Source: Procambarus clarkii (lineage: Eukaryota > Arthropoda > Malacostraca > Decapoda > Cambaridae). Taken from it: a stretch of 64,000 bases of DNA. Positions 10,741-50,334 of the stretch are shown here, piece after piece. Position 1 is the stretch's first letter; each line of letters begins with the position of its first letter. The position numbers were made by a program, and so were the translations under genes. The notes below the pieces were generated by a model that was not told the DNA's origin, did no database searches, and saw only the letters and a list, made by a program, of their open reading frames with translations. Location of the stretch: NCBI RefSeq assembly GCF_040958095.1, contig NC_091193.1:32252346-32316345 (forward strand), in the 5' to 3' direction.

Positions 10741-13449
10741 TCTTTTCTTGGATCTAAATAATACGAAACCTCACTTTATGATTCGAAGTTAAAATCTGCA
10801 AATTTGGAATAATAGTGACTCTCTTCACGTTTTTCATGTAGTTTGATATTACGTAAATATATTCGTTTTTACTAATATTTCGATACTATTTCATGTAGTA
10901 TCACGATATGTGATTTAGCCCTCATATCTCAGATTTTTCCATAATATTGCATTTTAAGCAAGTTTTCTTGCATTTTGTTTCATACTAAACATCATCGAAT
11001 TTAGCAATATTTTGACGTTTATCATCCCCTTTTCCTTTATGTGATTTAAAGAAAATATCATCGAATTAGGCAATATTTGGCCGTTTTTCCACGTTTTTGT
11101 GAATTTTAAGTTAATTGGTATTAATTCATTAAGAATACGATAAAAATGATGCAAACACGTAATTGATTAGATAATAAACTTAAATACTTCACCTTTAATC
11201 ATCTATTTGTTTCTCGTTGAAATACTGAGTAGGATATTGAAAAGGGGAGAAGTTCGGTTTTTATTGCATATATCGACGTTTCAGCCGGAATTGAGCGGTT
11301 TTACGTGTACTTCTTCCATCGGTAATATAAACGGAAAATCAGGAACATTTTAGTTAATTCTAATGAAAACACATTGATTTTTATCATTTGTATTGGAAAC
11401 AACATTGTCATATGTCTTTTCTTGGATCTAAATAATACGAAACCTCGCTTTATGATTCGAAGTTAAAATCCACACATTTGGAATAATAGTGACTCTCTTC
11501 ACGTTTTTCATGTAGTTTGATATGACGTAAATATTTTCATTTTTACCAATATTTCGATACTATTTCATGTAGTATCACGATATGTGATTTAGCCTTCATA
11601 TCTCAGATTTTTCCATAATATTGCATTTTAAGCAAGTTTTCTTGCATTTTGTTTCATACTAAACATCATCGAATTAAGCAATATTTTGACGTTTATCATC
11701 CCCTTTTCATTTATGTGATTTAAACAAAATATCATCGAATTAGGCAATATTTTGCCGTTTTTTTACGTTTTTGTGAATTTTCAATTTATTGGTATTAATT
11801 CATTAAGTATACGATAAAAATGATGCAAACACGTAATTGATTAGATAATAAACTTAAATACTTCACCTTTAATCATAAATTTGTTTCTCGTTGAAATACT
11901 GAGTAAGATATTGAAAAAGGGAGAAGTTTGGTTTTTATTGCATATATCGATGTTTCATCCGGATTAGAGTGGTTTTACGTGTACATCTTCCATCGGTAAT
12001 ATAAACGGAAAATCATGAACATTTTAGTTAATTCTAATGAAAACACATTGATTTTTATCATTTGTATTGCAAACAACATTTTCATATGTCTTTTCTTGGA
12101 TCTAAATAATACGAAACCTCGCTTTATGATTCGAAGTTAAAATCTGCAAATTTGGAATAATAGTGACTCTCTTCACGTTTTTCATGTAGTTTGATATTAC
12201 GTAAATATATTCATTTTTACTAATATTTCGATACTATTTTATGTAGTATCACGATATGTGATTTACCCTTCATATCTCAGATTTTTCCATAATATTGCAT
12301 TTTAAGCAAGTTTTCTTGCATTTTGTTTCATACTAAACATCATCGAATTTAGCAATATTTTGACGTTTATCATACCCTTTTCCTTTATGTGATTTAAACA
12401 AAATATCATCAAATTAGGCAATATTTTGCCGTTTTTCCACGTTTTTGTGAATTTTAAGTTAATTGGTATTAATTCATTAAGTATACGATAAAAATGATGC
12501 AAACACGTAATTGATTAGATAATAAACTTAAATACTTCACCTTTAATCATCTATTTGTTTCTCGTTGAAATACTGAGTAGGATATTGAAAAGGGGAGAAG
12601 TTTGGTTTTTATTGCATATATCGATGTTTCATCCGGATTAGAGCGGTTTTACGTGTACATCTTCCATCGGTAATATAAACGGAAAATCATGAACATTTTA
12701 GTTAATTCTAATGAAAACACATTGATTTTTATCATTTATATTGGAAACAACATTGTCATATGTCTTTTCTTGGATCTAAATAATACGAAACCTCGCTTTA
12801 TGATTCGAAGTTAAAATCTGCAAATTTGGAATAATAGTGACTCTCTTCACGTTTTTCATGTAGTTTGATATTACGTAAATATATTCATTTTTACCAATAT
12901 TTCGATACTATTTCATGTAGTATCACGATATGTGATTTGGCCTTCATATCTCAGATTTTTCCATAATATTGCATTTTAAGCAAGTTTTCTTGCATTTTGT
13001 TTCATACTAAACATCATCGAATTTAGCAATATTTTGACGTTTATCATCCCCTTTTCCTTTATGTGATTTAAACAAAATATCATCGAATTAGGCAATATTT
13101 TGCTGTTTTTCCACGTTTTTGTGAATTTTCAGTTTATTGGTATTAATTCATTATATATACGATAAAAATGATGCAAACACGTAAATGATTAGATAATAAA
13201 CTTAAATACTTCACCTTTAATCATCTATTTGTTTCTCGTTGAAATACTGAGTAAGATATTGAAAAAGGGAGAAGTTTGGGTTTTATTGCATATATCGATG
13301 TTTCATCCGGATTAGAGCGGTTTTACGTGTACATCTTCCATCGGTAATATAAACGGAAAATAAGGAACATTTTAGTTAATTCTAATGAAAACACATTGAT
13401 TTTTATCATTTGTATTGGAAACAACATTGTCATATGTCTTTTCTTGGAT

Positions 13450-13635
13450 GCAGGCGATGAGTCACAATAACGTGGCTGAAGTATGTTGACCAGACCACAC
13501 ACTAGAAATTGAAGGGACGACGACGTTTCGGTCCGTCCTGGACCATTCTCAAGTCGATTGTGATTGACTTGAGTTGACTCACAATCGACTTGAGAATGGT
13601 CCAGGACGGACCGAATCGTCGTCGTCCCTTCAATT
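13450..13635 (+). mobile_element. Hairpin element in satellite, copy L5
   Basis: It carries CCGAATCG in the right stem and loop TTGACTTGAGTTGAC, as in L4. It is mirrored by the reverse-strand copy at 48153-48337, which shows the same stem mismatch and loop change. Confidence 0.92.
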
Positions 13636-16600
13636 TCTTTTCTTGGATCTAAATAATACGAAACCTCACTTTATGATTCGAAGTTAAAATCTGCAAATTT
13701 GGAATAATAGTGACTCTCTTCACGTTTTTCATGTAGTTTGATATTACGTAAATATATTCGTTTTTACTAATATTTCGATACTATTTCATGTAGTATCACG
13801 ATATGTGATTTAGCCCTCATATCTCAGATTTTTCCATAATATTGCATTTTAAGCAAGTTTTCTTGCATTTTGTTTCATACTAAACATCATCGAATTTAGC
13901 AATATTTTGACGTTTATCATCCCCTTTTCCTTTATGTGATTTAAACAAAATATCATCGAATTAGGCAATATTTGGCCGTTTTTCCACGTTTTTGTGAATT
14001 TTAAGTTAATTGGTATTAATTCATTAAGAATACGATAAAAATGATGCAAACACGTAATTGATTAGATAATAAACTTAAATACTTCACCTTTAATCATCTA
14101 TTTGTTTCTCGTTGAAATACTGAGTAGGATATTGAAAAGGGGAGAAGTTCGGTTTTTATTGCATATATCGACGTTTCAGCCGGAATTGAGCGGTTTTACG
14201 TGTACTTCTTCCATCGGTAATATAAACGGAAAATCAGGAACATTTTAGTTAATTCTAATGAAAACACATTGATTTTTATCATTTGTATTGGAAACAACAT
14301 TGTCATATGTCTTTTCTTGGATCTAAATAATACGAAACCTCGCTTTATGATTCGAAGTTAAAATCCACACATTTGGAATAATAGTGACTCTCTTCACGTT
14401 TTTCATGTAGTTTGATATGACGTAAATATTTTCATTTTTACCAATATTTCGATACTATTTCATGTAGTATCACGATATGTGATTTAGCCTTCATCTCTCA
14501 GATTTTTCCATAATAATGCATTTTAAGCAAGTTTTCTTGCATTTTTTTTCCTACTAAACATCATCGAATTTAGCAATATTTTGACGTTTATCATCCCCTT
14601 TTCCTTTATGTGATTTAAACAAAATATCATCGAATTAGGCAATATTTTGCCGTTTTTTGACGTTTTTGTGAATTTTCAGTTTATTGGTATTAATTCATTA
14701 AGTATACGATAAAAATGATGCAAACACGTAATTGATTAGATAATAAACTTAAATACTTCACTTTTAATCATAAATTTGTTTCTCGTTGAAATACTGAGTA
14801 AGATATTGAAAAAGGGAGAAGTTTGGTTTTTATCGCATATATCGATGTTTCATCCGGATTAGAGCGGTTTTAGGTGTACATCTTCCATCGGTAATATACA
14901 CGGAAAATCATGAACATTTTAGTTAATTCTAATGAAAACACATTGATTTTTATCATTTGTATTGGAAACAACATTGTCATTTGTCTTTATTTGGATCTAA
15001 ATAATACGAAACCTCGCTTTATGATTCGAAGGTAAAATCCGCAAATTTGGAATAATAGTGACTCTCTTCACGTTTTTCATGTAGTTTGATATTACGTAAA
15101 TATATTCATTTTTACCAATATTTCGATACTATTTCATGTAGTATCACGATATGTGATTTGGCTTTCATATCTCAGATTTTTCCATAATATTGCATTTTAA
15201 GCAAGTTTTCTTGCATTTTGTTTCATACTAAACATCATCGAATTTAGCAATATTTTGACGTTTATCATCCCCTTTTCCTTTATGTGATTTAAACAAAATA
15301 TCATCGAATTAGGCAATATTTGGCCGTTTTTCCACGTTTTTGTGAATTTTAAGTTAATTGGTATTAATTCATTAAGAATACGATAAAAATGATGCAAACA
15401 CGTAATTGATTAGATAATAAACTTAAATACTTCACCTTTAATCATCTATTTGTTTCTCGTTGAAATACTGAGTAGGATATTGAAAAGGGGAGAAGTTCGG
15501 TTTTTATTGCATATATCGACGTTTCAGCCGGAATTGAGCGGTTTTACGTGTACTTCTTCCATCGGTAATATAAACGGAAAATCAGGAACATTTTAGTTAA
15601 TTCTAATGAAAACACATTGATTTTTATCATTTGTATTGGAAACAACATTGTCATATGTCTTTTCTTGGATCTAAATAATACGAAACCTCGCTTTATGATT
15701 CGAAGTTAAAATCCACACATTTGGAATAATAGTGACTCTCTTCACGTTTTTCATGTAGTTTGATATGACGTAAATATTTTCATTTTTACCAATATTTCGA
15801 TACTATTTCATGTAGTATCACGATATGTGATTTAGCCTTCATCTCTCTGATTTTTCCATAATATTGCATTTTAAGCAAGTTTTCTTGCATTTTGTTTCCT
15901 ACTAAACATCATCGAATTTAGCAATATTTTGACGTTTATCATCCCCTTTTCCTTTATGTGATTTAAACAAAATATCATCGAATTAGGCAATATTTTGCCG
16001 TTTTTTGACGTTTTTGTGAATTTTCAGTTTATTGGTATTAATTCATTAAGTATACGATAAAAATGATGCAAACACGTAATTGATTAGATAATAAACTTAA
16101 ATACTTCACTTTTAATCATAAATTTGTTTCTCGTTGAAATACTGAGTAAGATATTGAAAAAGGGAGAAGTTTGGTTTTTATCGCATATATCGATGTTTCA
16201 TCCGGATTAGAGCGGTTTTAGGTGTACATCTTCCATCGGTAATATACACGGAAAATCATGAACATTTTAGTTAATTCTAATGAAAACACATTGATTTTTA
16301 TCATTTGTATTGGAAACAACATTGTCATTTGTCTTTATTTGGATCTAAATAATACGAAACCTCGCTTTATGATTCGAAGGTAAAATCCGCAAATTTGGAA
16401 TAATAGTGACTCTCTTCACGTTTTTCATGTAGTTTGATATTACGTAAATATATTCATTTTTACCAATATTTCGATACTATTTCATGTAGTATCACGATAT
16501 GTGATTTGGCCTTCATATCTCAGATTTTTCCATAATATTGCATTTTAAGCAATTTTTCTTGCATTTTGTTTCATACTAAACATCATCGATTTTAGCAATG

Positions 16601-17018
16601 TTTTGACGTTTATCATCCCCTTTTCCTTTATGTGATTTAAACAAAATATCATCGAATTAGGCAATATTTTGCTGTTTTTCCACGTTTTTGTGATTTTTCA
16701 GTTTATTGGTATTAATTCATTATATATACGATAAAAATGATGCAAACACGTAAATGATTAGAAAATAAACTTAAATACTTCACCTTTAATCATCTATTTG
16801 TTTCTCGTTGAAATACTGAGTAAGATATTGAAAAAGGGAGAAGTTTGGTTTTTATTGCATATATCGATGTTTCATCCGGATTAGAGCGGTTTTACGTGTA
16901 CATCTTCCATCGGTAATATAAACGGAAAATAAGGAACTTTTTAGTTAATTCTAATGAAAACACATTGATTTTTATCATTTGTATTGGAAACAACATTGTC
17001 ATATGTCTTTTCTTGGAT

Positions 17019-17204
17019 GCAGGCGATGAGTCACAATAACGTGGCTGAAGTATGTTGACCAGACCACACACTAGAAATTGAAGGGACGACGACGTTTCGG
17101 TCCGTCCTGGACCATTCTCAAGTCGATTGTGATTGACTTGACTTGACTCACAATCGACTTGAGAATGGTCCAGGACGGACCGAAACGTCGTCGTCCCTTC
17201 TATT
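17019..17204 (+). mobile_element. Hairpin element in satellite, copy L6
   Basis: The diagnostic change is CCCTTCTATT at the right end instead of CCCTTCAATT. It is shared with copy L8, 5115 bp away, and with mirror copies at 39514 and 44610. Confidence 0.92.
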
Positions 17205-19913
17205 TCTTTTCTTGGATCTAAATATTACGAAACCTCGCTTTATGATTCGAAGTTAAAATCTGCAAATTTGGAATAATAGTGACTCTCTTCACGTTTTTCA
17301 TGTAGTTTGATATGACGTAAATATTTTCATTTTTACCAATATTTCGATACTATTTCATGTAGTATCACGATATGTGATTTAGCCTTCATATCTCAGATTT
17401 TTCCATAATATTGCATTTTAAGCAAGTTTTCTTGCATTTTGTTTCATACTAAACATCATCGAATTAAGCAATATTTTGACGTTTATCATCCCCTTTTCAT
17501 TTATGTGATTTAAAAAAAATATCATCGAATTAGGCAATATTTTGCCGTTTTTTTACGTTTTTGTGAATTTTCAATTTATTGGTATTAATTCATTAAGTAT
17601 ACGATAAAAATGATTCAAACACGTAATTGATTAGATAATAAACTTAAATACTTCACCTTTAATCATAAATTTGTTTCTCGTTGAAATACTGAGTAAGATA
17701 TTGAAAAAGGGAGAAGTTTGGTTTTTATTGCATATATCGATGTTTCATCCGGATTAGAGCGGTTTTACGTGTACATCTTCCATCGGTAATATAAACGGAA
17801 AATCATGAACATTTTAGTTAATTCTAATGAAAACACATTGATTTTTATCATTTGTATTGGAAACAACATTGTCATATGTCTTTTCTTGGATCTAAATAAT
17901 ACGAAACCTCGCTTTATGATTCGAAGTTAAAATCTGCAAATTTGGAATAATAGTGACTCTCTTCACGTTTTTCATGTAGTTTGATATTACGTAAATATAT
18001 TAATTTTTACTAATATTTCGATACTATTTTATGTAGTATCACGATATGTGATTTACCCTTCATATCTCAGATTTTTCCATAATATTGCATTTTAAGCAAG
18101 TTTTCTTGCATTTTGTTTCATACTAAACATCATCGAATTTAGCAATATTTTGACATTTATCATACCCTTTTCCTTTATGTGATTTAAACAAAATATCATC
18201 AAATTAGGCAATATTTTGCAGTTTTTCCACGTTTTTGTGAATTTTAAGTTAATTGGTATTAATTCATTAAGTATACGATAAAAATGATGCAAACACGTAA
18301 TTGATTAGATAATAAACTTAAATACTTCACCTTTAATCATCTATTTGTTTCTCGTTGAAATACTGAGTAGGATATTGAAAAGGGGAGAAGTTTGGTTTTT
18401 ATTGCATATATCGATGTTTCATCCGGATTACAGCGGTTTTACGTGTACATCTTCCATCGGTAATATAAACGGAAAATCATGAACATTTTAGTTAATTCTA
18501 ATGAAAACACATTGATTTTTATCATTTATATTGGAAACAACATTGTCATATGTCTTTTCTTGGATCTAAATAATACGAAACCTCGCTTTATGATTCGAAG
18601 TTAAAATCTGCAAATTTGGAATAATAGTGACTCTCTTCACGTTTTTCATGTAGTTTGATATTACGTAAATATATTCATTTTTACTAATATTTCGATACTA
18701 TTTCATGTAGTATCACGATATGTGATTTAGCCTTCATATCTCAGATTTTTCCATAATATTGCATTTTAAGCAAGTTTTCTTGCATTTTGTTTCATACTAA
18801 ACATCATCGAATTTAGCAATATTTTGACGTTTATCATCCCCTTTTCCTTTATGTGATTTAAACAAAATATCATCAAATTAGGCAATATTTTGCCGTTTTT
18901 CCACGTTTTTGTGAATTTTAAGTTAATTGGTATTAATTCATAAAGTATACGATAAAAATGATGCAAACACGTAATTGATTAGATAATAAACTTAAATACT
19001 TCACCTTTAATCATCTATTTGTTTCTCGTTGAAATACTGAGTAGGATATTGAAAAGGGGAGAAGTTCGGTTTTTATTGCATATATCGACGTTTCAGCCGG
19101 AATAGAGCGGTTTTACGTGTACTTCTTCCATCGGTAATATAAACGGAAAATCAGGAACATTTTAGTTAATTCTAATGAAAACACATTGATTTTTATTATT
19201 TGTATTGGAAACAACATTGTCATATGTCTTTTCTTGGATCTAAATAATACGAAACCTCGCTTTATGATTCGAAGTTAAAATCCACACATTTGGAATAATA
19301 GTGACTCTCTTCACGTTTTTCATGTAGTTTGAAATTACGTAAATATATTCATTTTTACCAATATTTCGATACTATTTCATGTAGTATCACGATATGTGAT
19401 TTGGCCTTCATATCTCAGATTTTTCCATAATATTGCATTTTAAGCAATTTTTCTTGCATTTTGTTTCATACTAAACATCATCGATTTTAGCAATATTTTG
19501 ACGTTTATCATCCCCTTTTCCTTTATGTGATTTAAACAAAATATCATCGAATTAGGCAATATTTTGCTGTTTTTCCACGTTTTTGTGAATTTTCAGTTTA
19601 TTGGTATTAATTCATTATATATACGATAAAAATGATGCAAACACGTAAATGATTAGATAATAAACTTAAATACTTCACCTTTAATCATCTATTTGTTTCT
19701 CGTTGAAATACTGAGTAAGATATTGAAAAAGGGAGAAGTTTGGTTTTTATTGCATATATCGATGTTTCATCCGGATTAGAGCGGTTTTACGTGTACATCT
19801 TCCATCGGTAATATAAACGGAAAATAAGGAACATTTTAGTTAATTCAAATGAAAACACATTGATTTTTATCATTTGTATTGGAAACAACATTGTCATATG
19901 TCTTTTCTTGGAT

Positions 19914-20099
19914 GCTGGCGATGAGTCACAATAACGTGGCTGAAGTATGTTGACCAGACCACACACTAGAAATTGAAGGGACGACGACGTTTCGGTCCGT
20001 CCTGGACCATTCTCAAGTCGATTGTGATTGACTTGACTTGACTCACAATCGACTTGAGAATGGTCCAGGACGGACCGAAACGTCGTCGTCCCTTCAATT
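19914..20099 (+). mobile_element. Hairpin element in satellite, copy L7
   Basis: It is unique among left-arm copies in starting GCTGGCG rather than GCAGGCG. Its mirror at 41731-41916 ends CGCCAGC, the exact complement, and no other right-arm copy does. Confidence 0.92.
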
Positions 20100-22133
20100 T
20101 CTTTTCTTGGATCTAAATTATACGAAACCTCGCTTTATGATTCGAAGTTAAAATCCGCAAATTTGGAATAATAGTGACTCTCTTCACGTTTTTCATGTAG
20201 TTTGATATTACGTAAATATATTCATTTTTACCAATATTTCGATACTATTTCATGTAGTATCACGATATGTGATTTGGCCTTCATATCTCAGATTTTTCCA
20301 TAATATTGCATTTTAAGCAAGTTTTCTTGCATTTTGTTTCATACTAAACATCATCGAATTTAGCAATATTTTGACGTTTATCATCCCCTTTTCCTTTATG
20401 TGATTTAAACAAAATATCATCGAATTAGGCAATATTTGGCCGTTTTTCCACGTTTTTGTGAATTTTAAGTTAATTGGTATTAATTCATTAAGAATACGAT
20501 AAAAATGATGCAAACACGTAATTGATTAGATAATAAACTTAAATACTTCACCTTTAATCATCTATTTGTTTCTCGTTGAAATACTGAGTAGGATATTGAA
20601 AAGGGGAGAAGTTCGGTTTTTATTGCATATATCGACGTTTCAGCCGGAATTGAGCGGTTTTACGTGTACTTCTTCCATCGGTAATATAAACGGAAAATCA
20701 GGAACATTTTAGTTAATTCTAATGAAAACACATTGATTTTTATCATTTGTATTGGAAACAACATTGTCATATGTCTTTTCTTGGATCTAAATAATACGAA
20801 ACCTCGCTTTATGATTCGAAGTTAAAATCCACACATTTGGAATAATAGTGACTCTCTTCACGTTTTTCATGTAGTTTGATATGACGTAAATATTTTCATT
20901 TTTACCAATATTTCGATACTATTTCATGTAGTATCACGATATGTGATTTAGCCTTCATCTCTCAGATTTTTCCATAATATTGCATTTTAAGCAAGTTTTC
21001 TTGCATTTTGTTTCCTACTAAACATCATCGAATTTAGCAATATTTTGACGTTTATCATCCCCTTTTCCTTTATGTGATTTAAACAAAATATCATCGAATT
21101 AGGCAATATTTTGCCGTTTTTTGACGTTTTTGTGAATTTTCAGTTTATTGGTATTAATTCATTAAGTATACGATAAAAATGATGCAAACACGTAATTGAT
21201 TAGATAATAAACTTAAATACTTCACTTTTAATCATAAATTTGTTTCTCGTTGAAATACTGAGTAAGATATTGAAAAAGGGAGAAGTTTGGTTTTTATCGC
21301 ATATATCGATGTTTCATCCGGATTAGAGCGGTTTTAGGTGTACATCTTCCATCGGTAATATACACGGAAAATCATGAACATTTTAGTTAATTCTAATGAA
21401 AACACATTGATTTTTATCATTTGTATTGGAAACAACATTGTCATTTGTCTTTATTTGGATCTAAATAATACGAAACCTCGCTTTATGATTCGAAGGTAAA
21501 ATCCGCAAATTTGGAATAATAGTGACTCTCTTCACGTTTTTCATGTAGTTTGATATTACGTAAATATATTCATTTTTACCAATATTTCGATACTATTTCA
21601 TGTAGTATCACGATAAGTGATTTGGCCTTCATATCTCAGATTTTTCCATAATATTGCATTTTAAGCACTTTTCTTGCATTTTGTTTCATACTAAACATCA
21701 TCGATTTTAGCAATGTTTTGACGTTTATCATCCCCTTTTCCTTTATGTGATTTAAACAAAATATCATCGAATTAGGCAATATTTTGCTGTTTTTCCACGT
21801 TTTTGTGATTTTTCAGTTTATTGGTATTAATTCATTATATATACGATAAAAATGATGCAAACACGTAAATGATTAGAAAATAAACTTAAATACTTCACCT
21901 TTAATCATCTATTTGTTTCTCGTTGAAATACTGAGTAAGATATTGAAAAAGGGAGAAGTTTGGTTTTTATTGCATATATCGATGTTTCATCCGGATTAGA
22001 GCGGTTTTACGTGTACATCTTCCATCGGTAATATAAACGGAAAATAAGGAACTTTTTAGTTAATTCTAATGAAAACACATTGATTTTTATCATTTGTATT
22101 GGAAACAACATTGTCATATGTCTTTTCTTGGAT

Positions 22134-22319
22134 GCAGGCGATGAGTCACAATAACGTGGCTGAAGTATGTTGACCAGACCACACACTAGAAATTGAAGGG
22201 ACGACGACGTTTCGGTCCGTCCTGGACCATTCTCAAGTCGATTGTGATTGACTTGACTTGACTCACAATCGACTTGAGAATGGTCCAGGACGGACCGAAA
22301 CGTCGTCGTCCCTTCTATT
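22134..22319 (+). mobile_element. Hairpin element in satellite, copy L8
   Basis: It has the CTTCTATT right end of L6 and lies exactly 5115 bp downstream of it, as expected for the 5115-bp tandem duplication. Confidence 0.92.
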
Positions 22320-25028
22320 TCTTTTCTTGGATCTAAATATTACGAAACCTCGCTTTATGATTCGAAGTTAAAATCTGCAAATTTGGAATAATAGTGACTC
22401 TCTTCACGTTTTTCATGTAGTTTGATATGACGTAAATATTTTCATTTTTACCAATATTTCGATACTATTTCATGTAGTATCACGATATGTGATTTAGCCT
22501 TCATATCTCAGATTTTTCCATAATATTGCATTTTAAGCAAGTTTTCTTGCATTTTGTTTCATACTAAACATCATCGAATTAAGCAATATTTTGACGTTTA
22601 TCATCCCCTTTTCATTTATGTGATTTAAAAAAAATATCATCGAATTAGGCAATATTTTGCCGTTTTTTTACGTTTTTGTGAATTTTCAATTTATTGGTAT
22701 TAATTCATTAAGTATACGATAAAAATGATGCAAACACGTAATTGATTAGATAATAAACTTAAATACTTCACCTTTAATCATAAATTTGTTTCTCGTTGAA
22801 ATACTGAGTAAGATATTGAAAAAGGGAGAAGTTTGGTTTTTATTGCATATATCGATGTTTCATCCGGATTAGAGCGGTTTTACGTGTACATCTTCCATCG
22901 GTAATATAAACGGAAAATCATGAACATTTTAGTTAATTCTAATGAAAACACATTGATTTTTATCATTTGTATTGGAAACAACATTGTCATATGTCTTTTC
23001 TTGGATCTAAATAATACGAAACCTCGCTTTATGATTCGAAGTTAAAATCTGCAAATTTGGAATAATAGTGACTCTCTTCACGTTTTTCATGTAGTTTGAT
23101 ATTACGTAAATATATTAATTTTTACTAATATTTCGATACTATTTTATGTAGTATCACGATATGTGATTTACCCTTCATATCTCAGATTTTTCCATAATAT
23201 TGCATTTTAAGCAAGTTTTCTTGCATTTTGTTTCATACTAAACATCATCGAATTTAGCAATATTTTGACGTTTATCATACCCTTTTCCTTTATGTGATTT
23301 AAACAAAATATCATCAAATTAGGCAATATTTTGCAGTTTTTCCACGTTTTTGTGAATTTTAAGTTAATTGGTATTAATTCATTAAGTATACGATAAAAAT
23401 GATGCAAACACGTAATTGATTAGATAATAAACTTAAATACTTCACCTTTAATCATCTATTTGTTTCTCGTTGAAATACTGAGTAGGATATTGAAAAGGGG
23501 AGAAGTTTGGTTTTTATTGCATATATCGATGTTTCATCCGGATTACAGCGGTTTTACGTGTACATCTTCCATCGGTAATATAAACGGAAAATCATGAACA
23601 TTTTAGTTAATTCTAATGAAAACACATTGATTTTTATCATTTATATTGGAAACAACATTGTCATATGTCTTTTCTTGGATCTAAATAATACGAAACCTCG
23701 CTTTATGATTCGAAGTTAAAATCTGCAAATTTGGAATAATAGTGACTCTCTTCACGTTTTTCATGTAGTTTGATATTACGTAAATATATTCATTTTTACT
23801 AATATTTCGATACTATTTCATGTAGTATCACGATATGTGATTTAGCCTTCATATCTCAGATTTTTCCATAATATTGCATTTTAAGCAAGTTTTCTTGCAT
23901 TTTGTTTCATACTAAACATCATCGAATTTAGCAATATTTTGACGTTTATCATCCCCTTTTCCTTTATGTGATTTAAACAAAATATCATCAAATTAGGCAA
24001 TATTTTGCCGTTTTTCCACGTTTTTGTGAATTTTAAGTTAATTGGTATTAATTCATAAAGTATACGATAAAAATGATGCAAACACGTAATTGATTAGATA
24101 ATAAACTTAAATACTTCACCTTTAATCATCTATTTGTTTCTCGTTGAAATACTGAGTAGGATATTGAAAAGGGGAGAAGTTCGGTTTTTATTGCATATAT
24201 CGACGTTTCAGCCGGAATAGAGCGGTTTTACGTGTACTTCTTCCATCGGTAATATAAACGGAAAATCAGGAACATTTTAGTTAATTCTAATGAAAACACA
24301 TTGATTTTTATTATTTGTATTGGAAACAACATTGTCATATGTCTTTTCTTGGATCTAAATAATACGAAACCTCGCTTTATGATTCGAAGTTAAAATCCAC
24401 ACATTTGGAATAATAGTGACTCTCTTCACGTTTTTCATGTAGTTTGATATTACGTAAATATATTCATTTTTACCAATATTTCGATACTATTTCATGTAGT
24501 ATCACGATATGTGATTTGGCCTTCATATCTCAGATTTTTCCATAATATTGCATTTTAAGCAATTTTTCTTGCATTTTGTTTCATACTAAACATCATCGAT
24601 TTTAGCAATATTTTGACGTTTATCATCCCCTTTTCCTTTATGTGATTTAAACAAAATATCATCGAATTAGGCAATATTTTGCTGTTTTTCCACGTTTTTG
24701 TGAATTTTCAGTTTATTGGTATTAATTCATTATATATACGATAAAAATGATGCAAACACGTAAATGACTAGATAATAAACTTAAATACTTCACCTTTAAT
24801 CATCTATTTGTTTCTCGTTGAAATACTGAGTAAGATATTGAAAAAGGGAGAAGTTTGGTTTTTATTGCATATATCGATGTTTCATCCGGATTAGAGCGGT
24901 TTTACGTGTACATCTTCCATCGGTAATATAAACGGAAAATAAGGAACATTTTAGTTAATTCTAATGAAAACACATTGATTTTTATCATTTGTATTGGAAA
25001 CAACATTGTCATATGTCTTTTCTTGGAT

Positions 25029-36626: not shown

Positions 36627-36811
36627 ATTGAAGGGACGACGACGTTTCGGTCCGTCCTGGACCATTCTCAAGTCGATTGTGAGTCAAGTCAAGTCAATCA
36701 CAATCGACTTGAGAATGGTCCAGGACGGACCGAAACGTCGTCGTCCCTTCAATTTCTAGTGTGTGGTCTGGTCAACATACTTCAGCCACGTTATTGTGAC
36801 TCATCGCCTGC
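36627..36811 (-). mobile_element. Hairpin element, right-arm copy R2 (mirror of L9)
   Basis: The junction reads AAGAAAAGATTGAAGGG, lacking two A residues present in the mirror. This is one of the homopolymer-type losses of the right arm. Confidence 0.9.
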
Positions 36812-39513
36812 ATCCAAGAAAAGACATATGACAATGTTGTTTCCAATACAAATGATAAAAATCAATGTGTTTTCATTAGAATTAACTAAAATGTTCCTTA
36901 TTTTCCGTTTATATTACCGATGGAAGATGTACACGTAAAACCGCTCTAATCCGGATGAAACATCGATATATGCAATAAAAACCAAACTTCTCCCTTTTTC
37001 AATATCTTACTCAGTATTTCAACGAGAAACAAATAGATGATTAAAGGTGAAGTATTTAAGTTTATTATCTAGTCATTTACGTGTTTGCATCATTTTTATC
37101 GTATATATAATGAATTAATACCAATAAACTGAAAATTCACAAAAACGTGGAAAAACAGCAAAATATTGCCTAATTCGATGATATTTTGTTTAAATCACAT
37201 AAAGGAAAAGGGGATGATAAACGTCAAAATATTGCTAAAATCGATGATGTTTAGTATGAAACAAAATGCAAGAAAAATTGCTTAAAATGCAATATTATGG
37301 AAAAATCTGAGATATGAAGGCCAAATCACATATCGTGATACTACATGAAATAGTATCGAAATATTGGTAAAAATGAATATATTTACGTAATATCAAACTA
37401 CATGAAAAACGTGAAAGAGTCACTATTATTCCAAATGTGTGGATTTTAACTTCGAATCATAAAGCGAGGTTTCGTATTATTTAGATCCAAGAAAAGACAT
37501 ATGACAATGTTGTTTCCAATACAAATAATAAAAATCAATGTGTTTTCATTAGAATTAACTAAAATGTTCCTGATTTTCCGTTTATATTACCGATGGAAGA
37601 AGTACACGTAAAACCGCTCTATTCCGGCTGAAACGTCGATATATGCAATAAAAACCGAACTTCTCCCCTTTTCAATATCCTACTCAGTATTTCAACGAGA
37701 AACAAATAGATGATTAAAGGTGAAGTATTTAAGTTTATTATCTAATCAATTACGTGTTTGCATCATTTTTATCGTATACTTTATGAATTAATACCAATTA
37801 ACTTAAAATTCACAAAAACGTGGAAAAACGGCAAAATATTGCCTAATTTGATGATATTTTGTTTAAATCACATAAAGGAAAAGGGGATGATAAACGTCAA
37901 AATATTGCTAAATTCGATGATGTTTAGTATGAAACAAAATGCAAGAAAACTTGCTTAAAATGCAATATTATGGAAAAATCTGAGATATGAAGGCTAAATC
38001 ACATATCGTGATACTACATGAAATAGTATCGAAATATTAGTAAAAATGAATATATTTACGTAATATCAAACTACATGAAAAACGTGAAGAGAGTCACTAT
38101 TATTCCAAATTTGCAGATTTTAACTTCGAATCATAAAGCGAGGTTTCGTATTATTTAGATCCAAGAAAAGACATATGACAATGTTGTTTCCAATATAAAT
38201 GATAAAAATCAATGTGTTTTCATTAGAATTAACTAAAATGTTCATGATTTTCCGTTTATATTACCGATGGAAGATGTACACGTAAAACCGCTGTAATCCG
38301 GATGAAACATCGATATATGCAATAAAAACCAAACTTCTCCCCTTTTCAATATCCTACTCAGTATTTCAACGAGAAACAAATAGATGATTAAAGGTGAAGT
38401 ATTTAAGTTTATTATCTAATCAATTACGTGTTTGCATCATTTTTATCGTATACTTAATGAATTAATACCAATTAACTTAAAATTCACAAAAACGTGGAAA
38501 AACTGCAAAATATTGCCTAATTTGATGATATTTTGTTTAAATCACATAAAGGAAAAGGGATGATAAACGTCAAAATATTGCTAAATTCGATGATGTTTAG
38601 TATGAAACAAAATGCAAGAAAACTTGCTTAAAATGCAATATTATGGAAAAATCTGAGATATGAAGGGTAAATCACATATCGTGATACTACATAAATAGTA
38701 TCGAAATATTAGTAAAAATTAATATATTTACGTAATATCAAACTACATGAAAAACGTGAAGAGAGTCACTATTATTCCAAATTTGCAGATTTTAACTTCG
38801 AATCATAAAGCGAGGTTTCGTATTATTTAGATCCAAGAAAAGACATATGACAATGTTGTTTCCAATACAAATGATAAAAATCAATGTGTTTTCATTAGAA
38901 TTAACTAAAATGTTCATGATTTTCCGTTTATATACCGATGGAAGATGTACACGTAAAACCGCTCTAATCCGGATGAAACATCGATATATGCAATAAAAAC
39001 CAAACTTCTCCCTTTTCAATATCTTACTCAGTATTTCAACGAGAAACAAATTTATGATTAAAGGTGAAGTATTTAAGTTTATTATCTAATCAATTACGTG
39101 TTTGCATCATTTTTATCGTATACTTAATGAATTAATACCAATAAATTGAAAATTCACAAAAACGTAAAAAAACGGCAAAATATTGCCTAATTCGATGATA
39201 TTTTTTTTAAATCACATAAATGAAAAGGGGATGATAAACGTCAAAATATTGCTTAATTCGATGATGTTTAGTATGAAACAAAATGCAAGAAAACTTGCTT
39301 AAAATGCAATATTATGGAAAAATCTGAGATATGAAGGCTAAATCACATATCGTGATACTACATGAAATAGTATCGAAATATTGGTAAAAATGAAAATATT
39401 TACGTCATATCAAACTACATGAAAACGTGAAGAGAGTCACTATTATTCCAAATTTGCAGATTTTAACTTCGAATCATAAAGCGAGGTTTCGTATATTTAG
39501 ATCCAAGAAAAGA

Positions 39514-39699
39514 AATAGAAGGGACGACGACGTTTCGGTCCGTCCTGGACCATTCTCAAGTCGATTGTGAGTCAAGTCAAGTCAATCACAATCGACTTGA
39601 GAATGGTCCAGGACGGACCGAAACGTCGTCGTCCCTTCAATTTCTAGTGTGTGGTCTGGTCAACATACTTCAGCCACGTTATTGTGACTCATCGCCTGC
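39514..39699 (-). mobile_element. Hairpin element, right-arm copy R3 (mirror of L8)
   Basis: It starts AATAGAAGGG, the complement of the CTTCTATT end that marks L8. One A of the following ATCCAAGAAAAGA flank is lost. Confidence 0.9.
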
Positions 39700-41730
39700 A
39701 TCCAAGAAAGACATATGACAATGTTGTTTCCAATACAAATGATAAAAATCAATGTGTTTTCATTAGAATTAACTAAAAAGTTCCTTATTTTCCGTTTATA
39801 TTACCGATGGAAGATGTACACGTAAAACCGCTCTAATCCGGATGAAACATCGATATATGCAATAAAAACCAAACTTCTCCCTTTTTCAATATCTTACTCA
39901 GTATTTCAACGAGAAACAAATAGATGATTAAAGGTGAAGTATTTAAGTTTATTTTCTAATCATTTACGTGTTTGCATCATTTTTATCGTATATATAATGA
40001 ATTAATACCAATAAACTGAAAAATCACAAAAACGTGGAAAAACAGCAAAATATTGCCTAATTCGATGATATTTTGTTTAAATCACATAAAGGAAAAGGGG
40101 ATGATAAACGTCAAAACATTGCTAAAATCGATGATGTTTAGTATGAAACAAAATGCAAGAAAAATGCTTAAAATGCAATATTATGGAAAAATCTGAGATA
40201 TGAAGGCCAATCACATTATCGTGATACTACATGAAATAGTATCGAAATATTGGTAAAAATGAATATATTTACGTAATATCAAACTACATGAAAAACGTGA
40301 AGAGAGTCACTATTATTCCAAATTTGCGGATTTTACTTCGAATCATAAAGCGAGGTTTCGTATTATTTAGATCCAAATAAAGACAAATGACAATGTTGTT
40401 TCCAATACAAATGATAAAAATCAATGTGTTTTCATTAGAATTAACTAAAATGTTCATGATTTTCCGTGTATATTACCGATGGAAGATGTACACCTAAAAC
40501 CGCTCTAATCCGGATGAAACATCGATATATGCGATAAAAACCAAACTTCTCCCTTTTTCAATATCTTACTCAGTATTTCAACGAGAAACAAATTTATGAT
40601 TAAAGTGAAGTATTTAAGTTTATTATCTAATCAATTACGTGTTTGCATCATTTTTATCGTATACTTAATGAATTAATACCAATAAACTGAAAATTCACAA
40701 AAACGTCAAAAAACGGCAAAATATTGCCTAATTCGATGATATTTTGTTTAAATCACATAAAGGAAAAGGGGATGATAAACGTCAAAATATTGCTAAATTC
40801 GATGATGTTTAGTAGGAAACAAAATGCAAGAAAACTTGCTTAAAATGCAATATTATGGAAAAATCTGAGAGATGAAGGCTAAATCACATATCGTGATACT
40901 ACATGAAATAGTATCGAAATATTGGTAAAAATGAAAATATTTACGTCATATCAAACTACATGAAAAACGTGAAGAGAGTCACTATTATTCCAAATGTGTG
41001 GATTTTAACTTCGAATCATAAAGCGAGGTTTCGTATTATTTAGATCCAAGAAAAGACATATGACAATGTTGTTTCCAATACAAATGATAAAAATCAATGT
41101 GTTTTCATTAGAATTAACTAAAATGTTCCTGATTTTCCGTTTATATTACCGATGGAAGAAGTACACGTAAAACCGCTCTCAATTCCGGCTGAAACGTCGA
41201 TATATGCAATAAAACCGAACTTCTCCCCTTTTCAATATCCTACTCAGTATTTCAACGAGAAACAAATAGATGATTAAAGGTGAAGTATTTAAGTTTATTA
41301 TCTAATCAATTACGTGTTTGCATCATTTTTATCGTATTCTTAATGAATTAATACCAATTAACTTAAAATTCACAAAAACGTGGAAAAACGGCAAAATATT
41401 GCCTAATTCGATGATATTTTGTTTAAATCACATAAAGGAAAAGGGGATGATAAACGTCAAAATATTGCTAAATTCGATGATGTTTAGTATGAAACAAAAT
41501 GCAAGAAAACTTGCTTAAAATGCAATATTATGGAAAAATCTGAGATATGAAGGCCAAATCACATATCGTGATACTACATGAAATAGTATCGAAATATTGG
41601 TAAAAATGAATATATTTACGTAATATCAAACTACATGAAAAACGTGAAGAGAGTCACTATTATTCCAAATTTGCAGATTTTAACTTCGAATCATAAAGCG
41701 AGGTTTCGTATTATTTAGATCCAAGAAAAG

Positions 41731-41916
41731 AATTGAAGGGACGACGACGTTTCGGTCCGTCCTGGACCATTCTCAAGTCGATTGTGAGTCAAGTCAAGTC
41801 AATCACAATCGACTTGAGAATGGTCCAGGACGGACCGAAACGTCGTCGTCCCTTCAATTTCTAGTGTGTGGTCTGGTCAACATACTTCAGCCACGTTATT
41901 GTGACTCATCGCCAGC
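41731..41916 (-). mobile_element. Hairpin element, right-arm copy R4 (mirror of L7)
   Basis: It ends CGCCAGC, complementary to the unique GCTGGCG of L7. This is the clearest single-copy proof that the arms pair monomer for monomer. One A is lost at the left junction. Confidence 0.92.
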
Positions 41917-44609
41917 ATCCAAGAAAAGACATATGACAATGTTGTTTCCAATACAAATGATAAAAATCAATGTGTTTTCATTAGAATTAACTAAAATGTT
42001 CCTTATTTTCCGTTTATATTACCGATGGAAGATGTACACGTAAAACCGCTCTAATCCGGATGAAACATCGATATATGCAATAAAAACCAAACTTCTCCCT
42101 TTTTCAATATCTTACTCAGTATTTCAACGAGAAACAAATAGATGATTAAAGGTGAAGTATTTAAGTTTATTATCTAATCATTTACGTGTTTGCATCATTT
42201 TTATCGTATATATAATGAATTAATACCAATAAACTGAAATTCACAAAAACGTGGAAAAACAGCAAAATATTGCCTAATTCGATGATATTTTGAAATCACA
42301 TAAAGGAAAAGGGGATGATAAACGTCAAAATATTGCTAAAATCGATGATGTTTAGTATGAAACAAAATGCAAGAAAAATTGCTTAAAATGCAATATTATG
42401 GAAAAATCTGAGATATGAAGGCCAAATCACATATCGTGATACTACATGAAATAGTATCGAAATATTGGTAAAAATGAATATATTTACGTAATTCAAACTA
42501 CATGAAAAACGTGAAGAGAGTCACTATTATTCCAAATGTGGATTTTAACTTCGAATCATAAAGCGAGGTTTCGTATTATTTAGATCCAAGAAAAGACATA
42601 TGACAATGTTGTTTCCAATACAAATGATAAAAATCAATGTGTTTCCATTAGAATTAACTAAAATGTTCCTGATTTTCCGTTTATATTACCGATGGAAGAA
42701 GTACACGTAAAACCGCTCTATTCCGGCTGAAACGTCGATATATGCAATAAAAACCGAACTTCTCCCCTTTTCAATATCCTACTCAGTATTTCAACGAGAA
42801 ACAAATAGATGATTAAAGGTGAAGTATTTAAGTTTATTATCTAATCAATTACGTGTTTGCATCATTTTTATCGTATACTTAATGAATTAATACCAATTAA
42901 CTTAAAATTCACAAAAACGTGGAAAAACGGCAAAATATTGCCTAATTCGATGATATTTTGTTTAAATCACATAAAGGAAAAGGGGATGATAACGTCAAAA
43001 TATTGCTAAATTCGATGATGTTTAGTAGAAACAAAATGCAAGAAAACTTGCTTAAAATGCAATATTATGGAAAATCTGAGATATGAAGGCTAAATCACAT
43101 ATCGTGATACTACATGAAATAGTATCGAAATATTGTAAAAATGAATATTTACGTAATATCAAACTACATGAAAAACGTGAAGAGAGTCACTATTATTCCA
43201 AATTTGCAGATTTTAACTTCGAATCATAAAGCGAGGTTTCGTATTATTTAGATCCAAGAAAAGACATATGACAATGTTGTTTCCAATACAAATGATAAAA
43301 ATCAATGTGTTTTCATTAGAATTAACTAAAATGTTCCTGATTTTCCGTTTATATTACCGATGGAAGATGTACACGTAAAACCGCTGTAATTCCGGATGAA
43401 ACATCGATATATGCAATAAAAACCAACTTCTCCCCTTTTCAATATCCTACTCAGTATTTCAACGAGAAACAAATAGATGATTAAAGGTGAAGTATTTAAG
43501 TTTATTATCTAATCAATTACGTGTTTGCATCATTTTTATCGTATACTTAATGAATTAATACCAATTAACTTAAAATTCACAAAAACGTGGAAAAACGCAA
43601 AATATTGCCTAATTTGATGATATTTTGTTTAAATCACATAAAGGAAAAGGGTATGATAAATGTCAAAATATTGCTAAATTCGATGATGTTTAGTATGAAA
43701 CAAAATGCAAGAAAACTTGCTTAAAATGCAATATTATGGAAAAATCTGAGATATGAAGGGTAAATCACATATCGTGATACTACATGAAATAGTATCGAAA
43801 TATTAGTAAAAATTAATATATTTACGTAATATCAAACTACATGAAAAACGTGAAGAGAGTCACTATTATTCCAAATTTGCAGATTTTAACTTCGAATCAT
43901 AAAGCGAGGTTTCGTATTATTTAGATCCAAGAAAGACATATGACAATGTTGTTTCCAATACAAATGATAAAAATCAATGTGTTTTCATTAGAATTAACTA
44001 AAATGTTCATGATTTTCCGTTATATTACCGATGGAAGATGTACACGTAAAACCGCTCTAATCCGGATGAAACATCGATATATGCAATAAAAACCAAACTT
44101 CTCCCTTTTTTCAATATCTTACTCAGTATTTCAACGAGAAACAAATTTATGATTAAAGGTGAAGTATTTAAGTTTATTATCTAATCAATTACGTGTTTGA
44201 ATCATTTTTATCGTATACTTAATGAATTAATACCAATAAATTGAAAATTCACAAAAACGTAAAAAAACGGCAAAATATTGCCTAATTCGATGATATTTTT
44301 TTAAATCACATAAATGAAAAGGGGATGATAAACGTCAAAATATTGCTTAATTCGATGATGTTTAGTATGAAACAAAATGCAAGAAAACTTGCTTAAAATG
44401 CAATATTATGGAAAAATCTGAGATATGAAGGCTAAATCACATATCGTGATACTACATGAAATAGTATCGAAATATTGGTAAAAATGAAAATATTTACGTC
44501 ATATCAAACTACATGAAAAACGTGAAGAGAGTCACTATTATTCCAAATTTGCAGATTTTAACTTCGAATCATAAAGCGAGGTTTCGTAATATTTAGATCC
44601 AAGAAAAGA

Positions 44610-44795
44610 AATAGAAGGGACGACGACGTTTCGGTCCGTCCTGGACCATTCTCAAGTCGATTGTGAGTCAAGTCAAGTCAATCACAATCGACTTGAGAAT
44701 GGTCCAGGACGGACCGAAACGTCGTCGTCCCTTCAATTTCTAGTGTGTGGTCTGGTCAACATACTTCAGCCACGTTATTGTGACTCATCGCCTGC
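44610..44795 (-). mobile_element. Hairpin element, right-arm copy R5 (mirror of L6)
   Basis: It starts AATAGAAGGG, as expected from L6. The neighbouring monomer (44800-46000) has dense one-base indels. Confidence 0.9.
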
Positions 44796-47700
44796 ATCCA
44801 AGAAAAGACATATGACAATGTTGTTTCCAATACAAATGATAAAAATCAATGTGTTTTCATTAGAATTAACTAAAAAGTTCCTTATTTTCCGTTTATATTA
44901 CCGATGGAAGATGTACACGTAAAACCGCTCTAATCCGGATGAAACATCGATATATGCAATAAAAACCAAACTTCTCCCTTTTTCAATATCTTACTCAGTA
45001 TTTCAACGAGAAACAAATAGATGATTAAAGGTGAAGTATTTAAGTTTATTTTCTAATCATTTACGTGTTTGCATCATTTTTATCTATCGTATATATTGAA
45101 TTAATACCAATAAACTGAAAAAATCACAAAAACGTGGAAAAACAGCAAATATTGCCTAATTCGATGATATTTTGTTTAAATCACATAAAGGAAAAGGGGA
45201 TGATAAACGTCAAAACATTGCTAAAATCGATGATGTTTAGTATGAAACAAAATGCAAGAAAAATTGCTTAAAATGCAATATTATGGAAAAATCTGAGATA
45301 TGAAGGCCAAATCACAATCGTGATACTACATGAATAGTATCGAAATATTGGTAAAAATGAATATATTTACGTAATATCAAACTACATGAAAAACGTGAAG
45401 AGAGTCACTATTATTCCAAATTTGCGGATTTTACCTTCGAATCATAAAGCGAGGTTTCGTATTATTTAGATCCAAATAAGACAAATGACAATGTTTGTTT
45501 CCAATACAATGATAAAAATCAATGTGTTTTCATTAGAATTAACTAAAATGTTCATGATTTTCCGTGTATATTACCGATGGAAGATGGACACCTAAAACCG
45601 CTCTAATCCGGATGAAACATCGATATATGCGATAAAAACCAAACTTCTCCCTTTTTCAATATCTTACTCAGTATTTCAACGAGAAACAAATTTATGATTA
45701 AAAGTGAAGTATTTAAGTTTATTATCTAATCAAATTACGTGTTTGCATCATTTTTATCGTATACTTAATGAATTAATACCAATAAACTGAAAATTCACAA
45801 AACGTCAAAAACGGCAAAATATTGCCTAATTCGATGATATTTTGTTTAAATCACATAAAGGAAAAGGATGATAAACGTCAAAATATGCTAAATTCGATGA
45901 TGTTTAGTAGGAAACAAAATGCAAGAAAACTTGCTTAAATGCAATATTATGGAAAATCAGAGAGATGAAGGCTAAATCACATATCGTGATACTACATGAA
46001 ATAGTATCGAAATATTGGTAAAAATGAAAATTTTACGTCATATCAAACTACATGAAAAACGTGAAGAGAGTCACTATTATTCCAAATGTGTGGATTTTAA
46101 CTTCGAATCATAAAGCGAGGTTTCGTATTATTTAGATCCAAGAAAAGACATATGACAATGTTGTTTCCAATACAAATGATAAAAATCAATGTGTTTTCAT
46201 TAGAATTAACTAAAATGTTCCTGATTTTCCGTTTATATTACCGATGGAAGAAGTACACGTAAAACCGCTCAATTCCGGCTGAAAACGTCGATATATGCAA
46301 TAAAAACCGAACTTCTCCCCTTTTCAATATCCTACTCAGTATTTCAACGAGAAACAAATAGATGATTAAAGGTGAAGTATTTAAGTTTATTATCTAATCA
46401 ATTACGTGTTTGCATCATTTTTATCGTATTCTTAATGAATTAATACCAATTAACTTAAAATTCACAAAAAACGTGGAAAAACGGCCAAATATTGCCTAAT
46501 TCGATGATATTTTGTTTAAATCACATAAAGGAAAAGGGATGATAAACGTCAAAATATTGCTAAATTCGATGATGTTTAGTATGAAACAAAATGCAAGAAC
46601 TTGCTTAAAATGCAATATTATGGAAAAATCTGAGATATGAAAGCCAAATCACATATCGTGATACTACATGAAATAGTATCGAAATATTGGTAAAATGAAT
46701 ATATTTACGTAATATCAAACTACATGAAAACGTGAAGAGAGTCACTATTATTCCAAATTTGCGGATTTTACCTTCGAATCATAAAGCGAGGTTTCGTATT
46801 ATTTAGATCCAAATAAAGACAATGACAATGTTGTTTCCAATACAAATGATAAAAATCAATGTGTTTTCATTAGAATTAACTAAAATGTTCATGATTTTCC
46901 GTGTATATTACCGATGGAAGATGTACACCTAAACCGCTCTAATCCGGATGAAACATCGATATATGCGATAAAAAACCAAACTTCTCCCTTTTTCAATATC
47001 TTACTCAGTATTTCAACGAGAAACAAATTTATGATTAAAGTGAAGTATTTAAGTTTATTATCTAATCAATTACGTGTTTGCATCATTTTTATCGTATACT
47101 TAATGAATTAATACCAATAAACTGAAAATTCACAAAACGTCAAAAAACGGCAAAATATTGCCTAATTCGATGATATTTTGTTTAAATCACATAAAGGAAA
47201 AGGGGATGATAAACGTCAAAATATTGCTAAATTCGATGATGTTTAGTAGGAAAAAAATGCAAGAAAACTTGCTTAAAATGCATTATTATGGAAAAATCTG
47301 AGAGATGAAGGCTAAATCACATATCGTGATACTACATGAAATAGTATCGAAATATTGGTAAAAATGAAAATATTTACGTCATATCAAACTACATGAAAAA
47401 CGTGAAGAGAGTCACTATTATTCCAAATGTGTGGATTTTAACTTCGAATCATAAAGCGAGGTTTCGTATTATTTAGATCCAAGAAAAGACATATGACAAT
47501 GTTGTTTCCAATACAATGATAAAAATCAATGTGTTTTCATTAGAATTAACTAAAATGTTCCTGATTTTCCGTTTATATTACCGATGGAAGAAGTACACGT
47601 AAAACCGCTCAATTCCGCTGAAACGTCGATATATGCAATAAAAACCGAACTTCTCCCCTTTTCAATATCCTACTCAGTATTTCAACGAGAAACAAATAGA

Positions 47701-48152
47701 TGATTAAAGGTGAAGTATTTAAGTTTATTATCTAATCAATTACGTGTTTGCATCATTTTTATCGTATTCTTAATGAATTAATACCAATTAACTTAAAATT
47801 CACAAAAACGTGGAAAAACGGCCAAATATTGCCTAATTCGATGATATTTTGTTTAAATCACATAAAGGAAAAGGGATGATAAACGTCAAAATATTGCTAA
47901 ATTCGATGATGTTTAGTATGAAACAAATGCAAGAAAACTTGCTTAAATGCAATATTATGGAAAAATCTGAGATATGAGGGCTAAATCACATATCGTGATA
48001 CTACATGAAAGTATCGAAATATTAGTAAAAACGAATATATTTACGTAATATCAAACTACATGAAAACGTGAAGAGAGTCACTATTATTCCAAATTTGCAG
48101 ATTTTAACTTCGAATCATAAGTGAGGTTTCGTATTATTTAGATCAAGAAAGA

Positions 48153-48337
48153 AATTGAAGGGACGACGACGATTCGGTCCGTCCTGGACATTCTCAAGTC
48201 GATTGTGAGTCAACTCAAGTCAATCACAATCGACTTGAGAATGGTCCAGGACGGACCGAAACGTCGTCGTCCCTTCAATTTCTAGTGTGTGTCTGGTCCA
48301 ACATACTTCAGCCACGTTATTGTGACTCATCGCCTGC
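48153..48337 (-). mobile_element. Hairpin element, right-arm copy R6 (mirror of L5)
   Basis: It carries GACGATTCGGTCC and loop GTCAACTCAAGTCAA, the complements of the two L5-specific changes. Bases are lost in GGACATTCTC and GTGTGTCTGG relative to L5. Confidence 0.9.
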
Positions 48338-50334
48338 ATCCAAGAAAAGACATATGACAATGTTGTTTCCAATACAAATGATAAAAATCAATGTGTTTTC
48401 ATTAGAATTAACTAAAATGTTCCTTATTTTCCGTTTATATTACCGATGGAAGATGTACACGTAAAACCGCTCTAATCCGGATGAAACATCGATATATGCA
48501 ATAAAACCCAAACTTCTCCCTTTTTCAATATCTTACTCAGTATTTCAACGAGAACAAATAGATGATTAAAGGTGAAGTATTTAAGTTTATTATCTAATCA
48601 TTTACGTGTTTGCATCATTTTTATCGTATATATAATGAATTAATACCAATAACTGAAAATTCACAAAAACGTGGAAAAACAGCAAAATATTGCCTAATTC
48701 GATGATATTTTGTTTAAATCACATAAAGGAAAAGGGATGATAAACGTCAAAATATTGCTAAATTCGATGATGTTTAGTATGAAACAAATGCAAGAAAACT
48801 TGCTTAAAATGCAATATTATGGAAAAATCTGAGATATGAAGGCCAAATCACATATCGTGATACTACATGAAATAGTATCGAAATATTGGTAAAAATGAAT
48901 ATATTTACGTAATATCAAACTACATGAAAAACGTGAAGAGAGTCACTATTATTCCAAATTTGCAGATTTTAACTTCGAATCATAAAGCGAGGTTTCGTAT
49001 TATTTAGATCCAAGAAAAGACATATGACAATGTTGTTTCCAATATAAATGATAAAAATCAATGTGTTTTCATTAGAATTAACTAAAATGTTCATGATTTT
49101 CCGTTTATATTACCGATGGAAGATGTACACGTAAAACCGCTCTAATCCGGATGAAACATCGATATATGCAATAAAAACCAACTTCTCCCCTTTTCAATAT
49201 CCTACTCAGTATTTCAACGAGAAACAAATAGATGATTAAAGGTGAAGTATTTAAGTTTATTATCTAATCAATTACGTGTTTGCATCATTTTTATCGTATA
49301 CTTAATGAATTAATACCAATTAACTTAAAATTCACAAAAACGTGGAAAAACGGCAAAATATTGCCTAATTGATGATATTTTGTTTAAATCACATAAAGGA
49401 AAAGGGTATGATAAACGTCAAAATATTGCTAAATTCGATGATGTTTAGTATGAAACAAAATGCAAGAAAACTTGCTTAAAATGCAATATTATGGAAAAAT
49501 CTGAGATATGAAGGGTAAATCACATATCGTGATACTACATAAATAGTATCGAAATATTAGTAAAAATGAATATATTTACGTAATATCAAACTACATGAAA
49601 AACGTGAAGAGAGTCACTATTATTCCAAATTTGCAGATTTTAACTTCGAATCATAAAGCGAGGTTTCGTATTATTTAGATCCAAGAAAAGACATATGACA
49701 AATGTTGTTTCAATACAATGATAAAAATCAATGTGTTTTCATTAGAATTAACTAAAATGTTCATGATTTTCCGTTTATATTACCGATGGAAGATGTACAC
49801 GTAAAACCACTCTAATCCGGATGAAACATCGATATATGCAATAAAAACCAAACTTCTCCCTTTTTCAATATCTACTCAGTATTTCAACGAGAAACAAATT
49901 TATGATTAAAGGTGAAGTATTTAAGTTTATTATCTAATCAATTACGTGTTTGCATCATTTTTATCGTATACTTAATGAATTAATACCAATAAATTGAAAA
50001 TTCACAAAAACGTAAAAAAACGCAAAATATTGCCTAATTCGATGATATTTTTTTAAATCACATAAATGAAAAGGGGATGATAAACGTCAAAATATTGCTT
50101 AATTCGATGATGTTTAGTATGAAACAAAATGCAAGAAAACTTGCTTAAAATGCAATATTATGGAAAAATCTGAGATATGAAGGCTAAATCACATATCGTG
50201 ATACTACATGAAATAGTATCGAAATATTGGTAAAAATGAAAATATTTACGTCATATCAAACTACATGAAAAAACGTGAAGAGAGTCACTATTATTCCAAA
50301 TGGTGGATTTTAACTTCGAATCATAAAGCGAGGT

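Follow-up and report, generated by a model that had tools for sequence, protein, structure and literature searches.

A 39-kb satellite palindrome in a crayfish genome assembly is probably a technical fold-back at a hairpin insert

The locus examined here raises the question of whether a long mirror image in an assembled satellite array belongs to the chromosome of the animal or to the way in which its DNA was read and assembled. The window, a stretch of 64,000 nucleotides from a Procambarus clarkii assembly (scaffold C44, positions 32252346-32316345; 4.03 Gb in 2308 pieces), had been described in a first-pass annotation as containing a ~39-kb satellite palindrome with arms of ~19.4 kb and a 15-bp spacer, and either a very young inverted duplication or a technical fold-back had been offered as its origin, with no choice made between them. 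Our results indicate that the pattern is real in the assembly, while the structure is probably not real in the animal. As judged from the assembled sequence, the mirror image very probably is technical rather than a chromosome structure, with fold-back reads that turned at a hairpin having become the end of a contig.

Bases 1-50334 of the window consist of a satellite with a 674-nt monomer. This satellite is abundant, with one of its 27-mers matching the assembly 61,228 times in forward and 64,892 times in reverse orientation; the number 674 does not occur in the main text of a crayfish satellitome paper (PMC13130569). In the contig left of the palindrome axis, 53 monomer spacings were exactly 674 nt and 23 exactly 873 nt, the latter via a 199-nt insertion. 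This insertion contains a hairpin with a 15-nt loop, a loop length shared by all 15 window hairpins listed by a search that required perfect arms of 25 nt or longer and allowed loops of up to 15 nt. An ordinary, non-axis example at 25083..25217 (+ strand) has 60-bp arms and the same 15-nt loop, and forward satellite resumes at its right. By eye, the insert resembles a small retroposon, with a 13-nt target-site duplication (TCTTTTCTTGGAT) in the satellite, e.g., at ~25029-25214, and a dispersed copy at C62:26834840 ends in an A run followed by an apparent repeat of the upstream flank. Most of the second half of the insert is reverse-complementary to a portion of the first half, and insert RNA would therefore fold into a long hairpin. 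The insert presumably resembles decapod repeats.

The axis of the palindrome is precisely the 15-nt loop of one of these recurrent hairpin inserts (30924..30938, + strand, TTGACTTGACTTGAC), with 95-bp perfect arms on both sides, and this explains the 15-nt spacer. The 205 nt around the axis are predicted to fold, when single-stranded, into one DNA hairpin of 95 pairs (-127.7 kcal/mol, z -30.8). Such an axis would also suit a real, very recent inverted duplication, that is, a genuine near-perfect palindrome of 39 kb, in which a break beside the retroposon-like insert would have produced a hairpin-capped chromosome end, and replication would then have inverted at least 19.4 kb of the array. In E. 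coli cells without SbcCD and RecA, interrupted palindromes of 246 bp or 85 bp are reported to be able to seed an inverted chromosome duplication via a capped end (PMC3315005), and the axis studied here sits exactly on a short interrupted palindrome of this type. We regard a real duplication as unlikely, and give it this much weight because in cells a broken end could be capped by this very hairpin (PMC3315005).

Aligned to its own reverse complement, the window from 11442 to 50334 had 99.24% identity across 39,023 columns; as in a fold-back, the two halves are near reverse complements of each other over 39 kb and are separated by only 15 nt. The palindrome is thus present in the assembled sequence. 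The left arm (11442..30923, + strand) comprises 19,482 nt of forward 674-bp monomers, some of 873 bp, with few indels relative to the consensus, and the right arm (30939..50334, - strand) is a reverse-complement copy of 19,396 nt, 86 nt shorter than the left. Their global alignment contained 19,330 identical columns, 49 mismatches, and 132 runs of difference, with 17 nt missing from the left arm and 103 nt from the right. The next longest inverted matches in the window, one of 10.7 kb at 96.7-96.8% and others of ~7.2 kb at 96.7-98.7%, are other registers of the satellite repeat. Arms of this length had been called extreme for a eukaryotic genome, which does not hold: human Y palindromes P1-P8 are reported to have arms of 8.7-1450 kb (PMC6218980), and the inverted dyads of Tribolium satellite arrays to reach 75 kb (PMC13081366). 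The existence of dyads of tens of kb in Tribolium arrays also speaks for a real duplication (PMC13081366).

The right arm repeats private features of the left arm, as had been proposed. The left arm has 664 21-mers that the other fetched satellite sequence lacks (a comparison pool of ~201 kb when summed as 111.4 + 90 kb, although labelled 171 kb in the analysis script); 538 of them were found again in the right arm, and the left arm held 0, 0, 5, and 0 of the private 21-mers of four control segments. A left-arm 31-mer located 0.3 kb left of the axis occurs at exactly two places in the 4.03-Gb assembly, at mirror positions. Hairpin spacings mirror between the arms, and the motif pair GCTGGCG/CGCCAGC was confirmed, with GCTGGCG occurring once (19914) and CGCCAGC once (41910) in bases 1-50334. 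A second pair, searched in the same bases, held for CGATTCGG, which occurs once (48170), but CCGAATCG occurs both at 10716 and at 13611 and is thus unique merely within the arm. We rejected the possibility that the right arm is a different copy of the array rather than a mirror of the same place, the order of inserts and the private variants being decisive. When the left arm was compared in 2.7-kb slices, the right arm had fewer mismatches than the best other fetched copy in six of seven slices and tied in one (slice 16842; 3 and 3 mismatches), and when the right arm was compared in the same way, the left arm was the better match in all seven. Left slices 11442, 16842, and 22242 had near-identical partners elsewhere too (3-6 mismatches), and identity alone is therefore weak evidence there. 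The repetition of private variants would also fit a fold-back made by the assembler only, in which a graph path reverses at a hairpin and left-arm reads are re-used in reverse, without any fold-back read. The hairpin inserts are indeed self-complementary and frequent in the array, but the self-complementary stretch of an ordinary insert is ~135 bp, which is probably short for a long-read overlap, and we consider this route highly improbable.

The contig carrying the palindrome (C44:32165753-32302679, 136,927 nt) has N gaps on both sides. From its start to the axis, a length of 117.5 kb, all exact monomer anchors in this contig point forward, and in the remaining 19.4 kb all point backward. There is no left-arm boundary at 11442, where forward satellite runs on leftward to the contig start, and 11442 is not a biological edge, as no exact monomer anchor of the contig points backward before the axis. 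On the other side, the final base of the right arm, 50334, directly adjoins a scaffold gap of 500 N (50335..50834). Given that the right arm stops at the contig end while the left satellite continues, the arm length is set by the contig stop. The palindrome initially placed at 11452..50334 therefore stands, but it starts at 11442, without a biological edge, and its end is the contig end, beside a gap that the first-pass annotation had left unmentioned. As in a fold-back, nothing independent follows the second half. That the right arm never meets unique sequence and stops at a gap argues against a real duplication, under which the contig end would mark the point where the assembler was unable to resolve further. 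In the next contig beyond the gap, no exact monomer anchor was found; this contig contains a 13-nt minisatellite (~123 copies) at 50842-52423 and a 34-nt minisatellite (~71 copies) at 61555-64000.

Sequence quality changes at the axis. Consensus scoring, which covered 172 of 181 monomer segments, yielded 10 deletions of at most 3 nt in the 19,356 nt scored up to 20 kb left of the axis and 99 in 18,599 nt of the right arm, a tenfold rise from 0.5 to 5.3 short deletions per kb. The step was already apparent close to the axis, with no deletions in 2,221 nt on the left and 8 in 2,214 nt on the right within 2.5 kb, and 3 on the left versus 20 on the right within 5 kb (P = 0.0003). Right-arm deletion rates were ~3.5-6 per kb near the axis and up to 9.4 far away. 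Substitutions relative to the consensus were unchanged across the axis (roughly 13-26 per kb in the bins of either side), and plain monomers measured 667-673 nt in the right arm and mostly exactly 674 nt in the left arm. Among ten other fetched pieces, six with 17-20 substitutions per kb had 0.11-0.68 deletions per kb, and the other four had 32-61 substitutions, 1.6-3.8 deletions, and 1.6-2.9 insertions per kb. One candidate control for poor polishing, C1:258-274 kb, had short monomer periods but 61 substitutions per kb in the fetched part; it was dropped as a divergent subfamily rather than a poorly polished region. The deletion step also weighs against the assembler-only route, since re-used left-arm reads should carry left-arm quality and not tenfold deletions.

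The differences between the arms were also strongly one-sided. When 122 merged differences were polarised against sequence outside both arms, 103 were odd in the right arm, 9 were odd in the left arm, and 10 were unclear. For indels, the counts were 99 in the right arm and 1 in the left, with 6 more unclear (under equal sharing, P = 1.6e-28). The right arm had 92 pure deletions, 67 of which lay within runs of at least three of one base, and the identical deletion recurred in identical context five times in a CCCC run and five times in a TTTTT run, as expected of base-calling errors. Two truly diverging arms would split their indels evenly, and therefore we read the right-arm indels as sequencing errors in what appears to be a poorly corrected copy. 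Aside from the 9 left-odd differences, the arms thus appear to differ through errors rather than shared divergence, as expected of a fold-back. A real duplication would be expected to accumulate indels in both arms, yet the right arm holds 99 of the 100 that were polarised.

Eight of the nine left-odd differences fall within a substitution tract at 18030..20438 (+ strand; mirror at ~41393-43786), where the arms differ by 11 substitutions. Of these 11, 8 have the rarer variant on the left and the commoner one on the right, 1 has its odd state on the right, and 2 are unclear. Outside the tract, the remaining left-odd difference spans 3 nt at 28222, with the right arm in the common state. The sequence that was fetched contained no single donor copy for the tract. 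Each of three processes would explain it: a mixture of alleles in the left consensus, misplacement of reads into the right arm, and, were the palindrome real, gene conversion. Conversion of one arm is accordingly a point that a real duplication could claim. Together with the difference at 28222, the tract counts against a fold-back, as a pure same-molecule copy would look different unless alleles or misplaced reads had been mixed in.

The mirrored satellite-insert junction around the axis (30801..31060) was the sole exact match to its pattern in the 4.03-Gb assembly, and the opposite fold-back type, in which the right flank is kept, had 0 exact matches. For the exact insert-satellite 5' junction there were 76 matches, every one of them on C44; 40 in reverse orientation lie at 31.698-31.811 Mb, 32 in forward orientation at 32.203-32.283 Mb, and the other 4, again reverse, in the right arm. 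Hence, 1 of 72 insert copies outside the right arm has turned, at 19.4 kb from the contig end, in counts that comprise exact matches and miss diverged copies on both sides of the count. Searched with one private 31-mer across the whole assembly, left-arm private variants did not continue past the insert on another contig, the 31-mer being confined to the two arms. In Tribolium, inversion sites are reported to recur (PMC13081366), and the single exact junction match found here counts against a real duplication. Of the two origins that the first-pass annotation had left side by side, the technical fold-back is thus favoured by the arm ending at the contig end, the indel step at the axis, the 99 of 100 polarised indels that fall on the right, and the single junction match.

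The 72 junctions form two blocks of opposite orientation, C44:31698391-31811389 and C44:32203438-32283168, ~390 kb apart. With all junctions on one scaffold, one founding insertion apparently was amplified along with the satellite, and the opposite orientation of the two blocks may be genuine or may come from an error in scaffolding. The fetched part of the reverse block at 31.70-31.81 Mb contained no comparable mirror image and matched the left arm at 96-98% only. Within this block, C44:31700841-31713273 has two inverted 2.3-kb copies (99.3%) ~7.9 kb apart.

We infer a scheme for what happened in the reads, how the strand was switched, what the assembler did, and which platform was used. Its starting point would be the forward satellite array with its many copies of the hairpin-forming insert. 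One molecule, or a few, would have ended or been nicked within the 3' stem of one insert, and the molecule end could then have folded back on the 5' stem, giving a hairpin-capped molecule or self-primed copying. By either route, extension of the folded end or passage round a hairpin-closed end as round an adapter, the sequencer would have read the strand and then its complement in a single long read. If the assembler extended the contig with such a fold-back read, the contig would retrace itself for 19.4 kb and end where the fold-back reads end, and the right arm might then have been less well corrected than the left, retaining many small deletions.

Other observations temper this scheme. Fewer deletions near the axis than far from it would be expected of any contig end, real or artefactual. 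The arms are ~0.8% apart, and raw long-read error is far above this value; the right arm would thus require several reads or strong correction, and true axis-crossing reads are possibly included. Moreover, Nanopore errors past an inverted junction would strike a real palindrome too.

Fold-back reads are documented in published surveys. Among genomic reads from Nanopore, they are reported to represent ~0.55-0.6%, and a single breakpoint can be common to two of them (PMC12870357). The same authors place their origin in library preparation. Two other results of that survey count against the scheme, namely no signal noise around breakpoints in a checked subset and virtually no fold-backs in PacBio HiFi (PMC12870357). 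In a non-amplified PacBio control, 0.5% of reads were palindromic, a value that includes false positives and missed adapters (PMC6218980). Nanopore quality is described as falling from an inverted junction onward, with the second half shortened via missed bases (PMC7229812), which matches the right arm being 86 nt shorter.

Scans of draft assemblies for giant palindromes or inverted satellites will run into this pattern. In our study, three checks that use the assembly only revealed the probable artefact: a second arm at a gap, one-sided indels, and a deletion step at the axis. These results suggest that hairpin inserts in satellites can be favoured turning points for fold-back reads. If the palindrome were true instead, it would indicate that satellite-seeded mobile hairpins can flip array orientation, and it would represent a satellite macro-dyad beyond Tribolium, the sole genus known to its describers (PMC13081366).

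Among known systems, the Tribolium macro-dyad symmetries are similar to this locus in having satellite subarrays of opposite orientation over tens of kb, but the sites described there are recurrent and conserved (PMC13081366), whereas here, among exact matches in the assembly, the junction occurred once and its opposite type not at all, and the right subarray ends at a gap instead of lying, like both subarrays of a macro-dyad, inside a contig and off gaps. The hairpin-capped ends of E. coli sbcDC recA share the position of the axis at a short interrupted palindrome (PMC3315005); unlike in that system, the right arm here is of lower quality and ends at the contig end. The loss of Nanopore quality at inverted junctions offers a closer parallel, with quality dropping at the junction and a shorter second half, here deletion-rich, although those inverted duplications were observed in yeast and human reads (PMC7229812) and a Nanopore platform is only presumed here. 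Finally, the locus resembles the fold-back reads targeted by Breakinator (PMC12870357) and the palindromic reads targeted by Pacasus (PMC6218980), with near-perfect forward and reverse copies, almost no spacer, and a second half without new sequence. Such reads are said to tangle assembly graphs (PMC12870357; PMC6218980); in contrast to those reads, the mirror image described here stands in a finished contig, and its turning point is a genomic hairpin.
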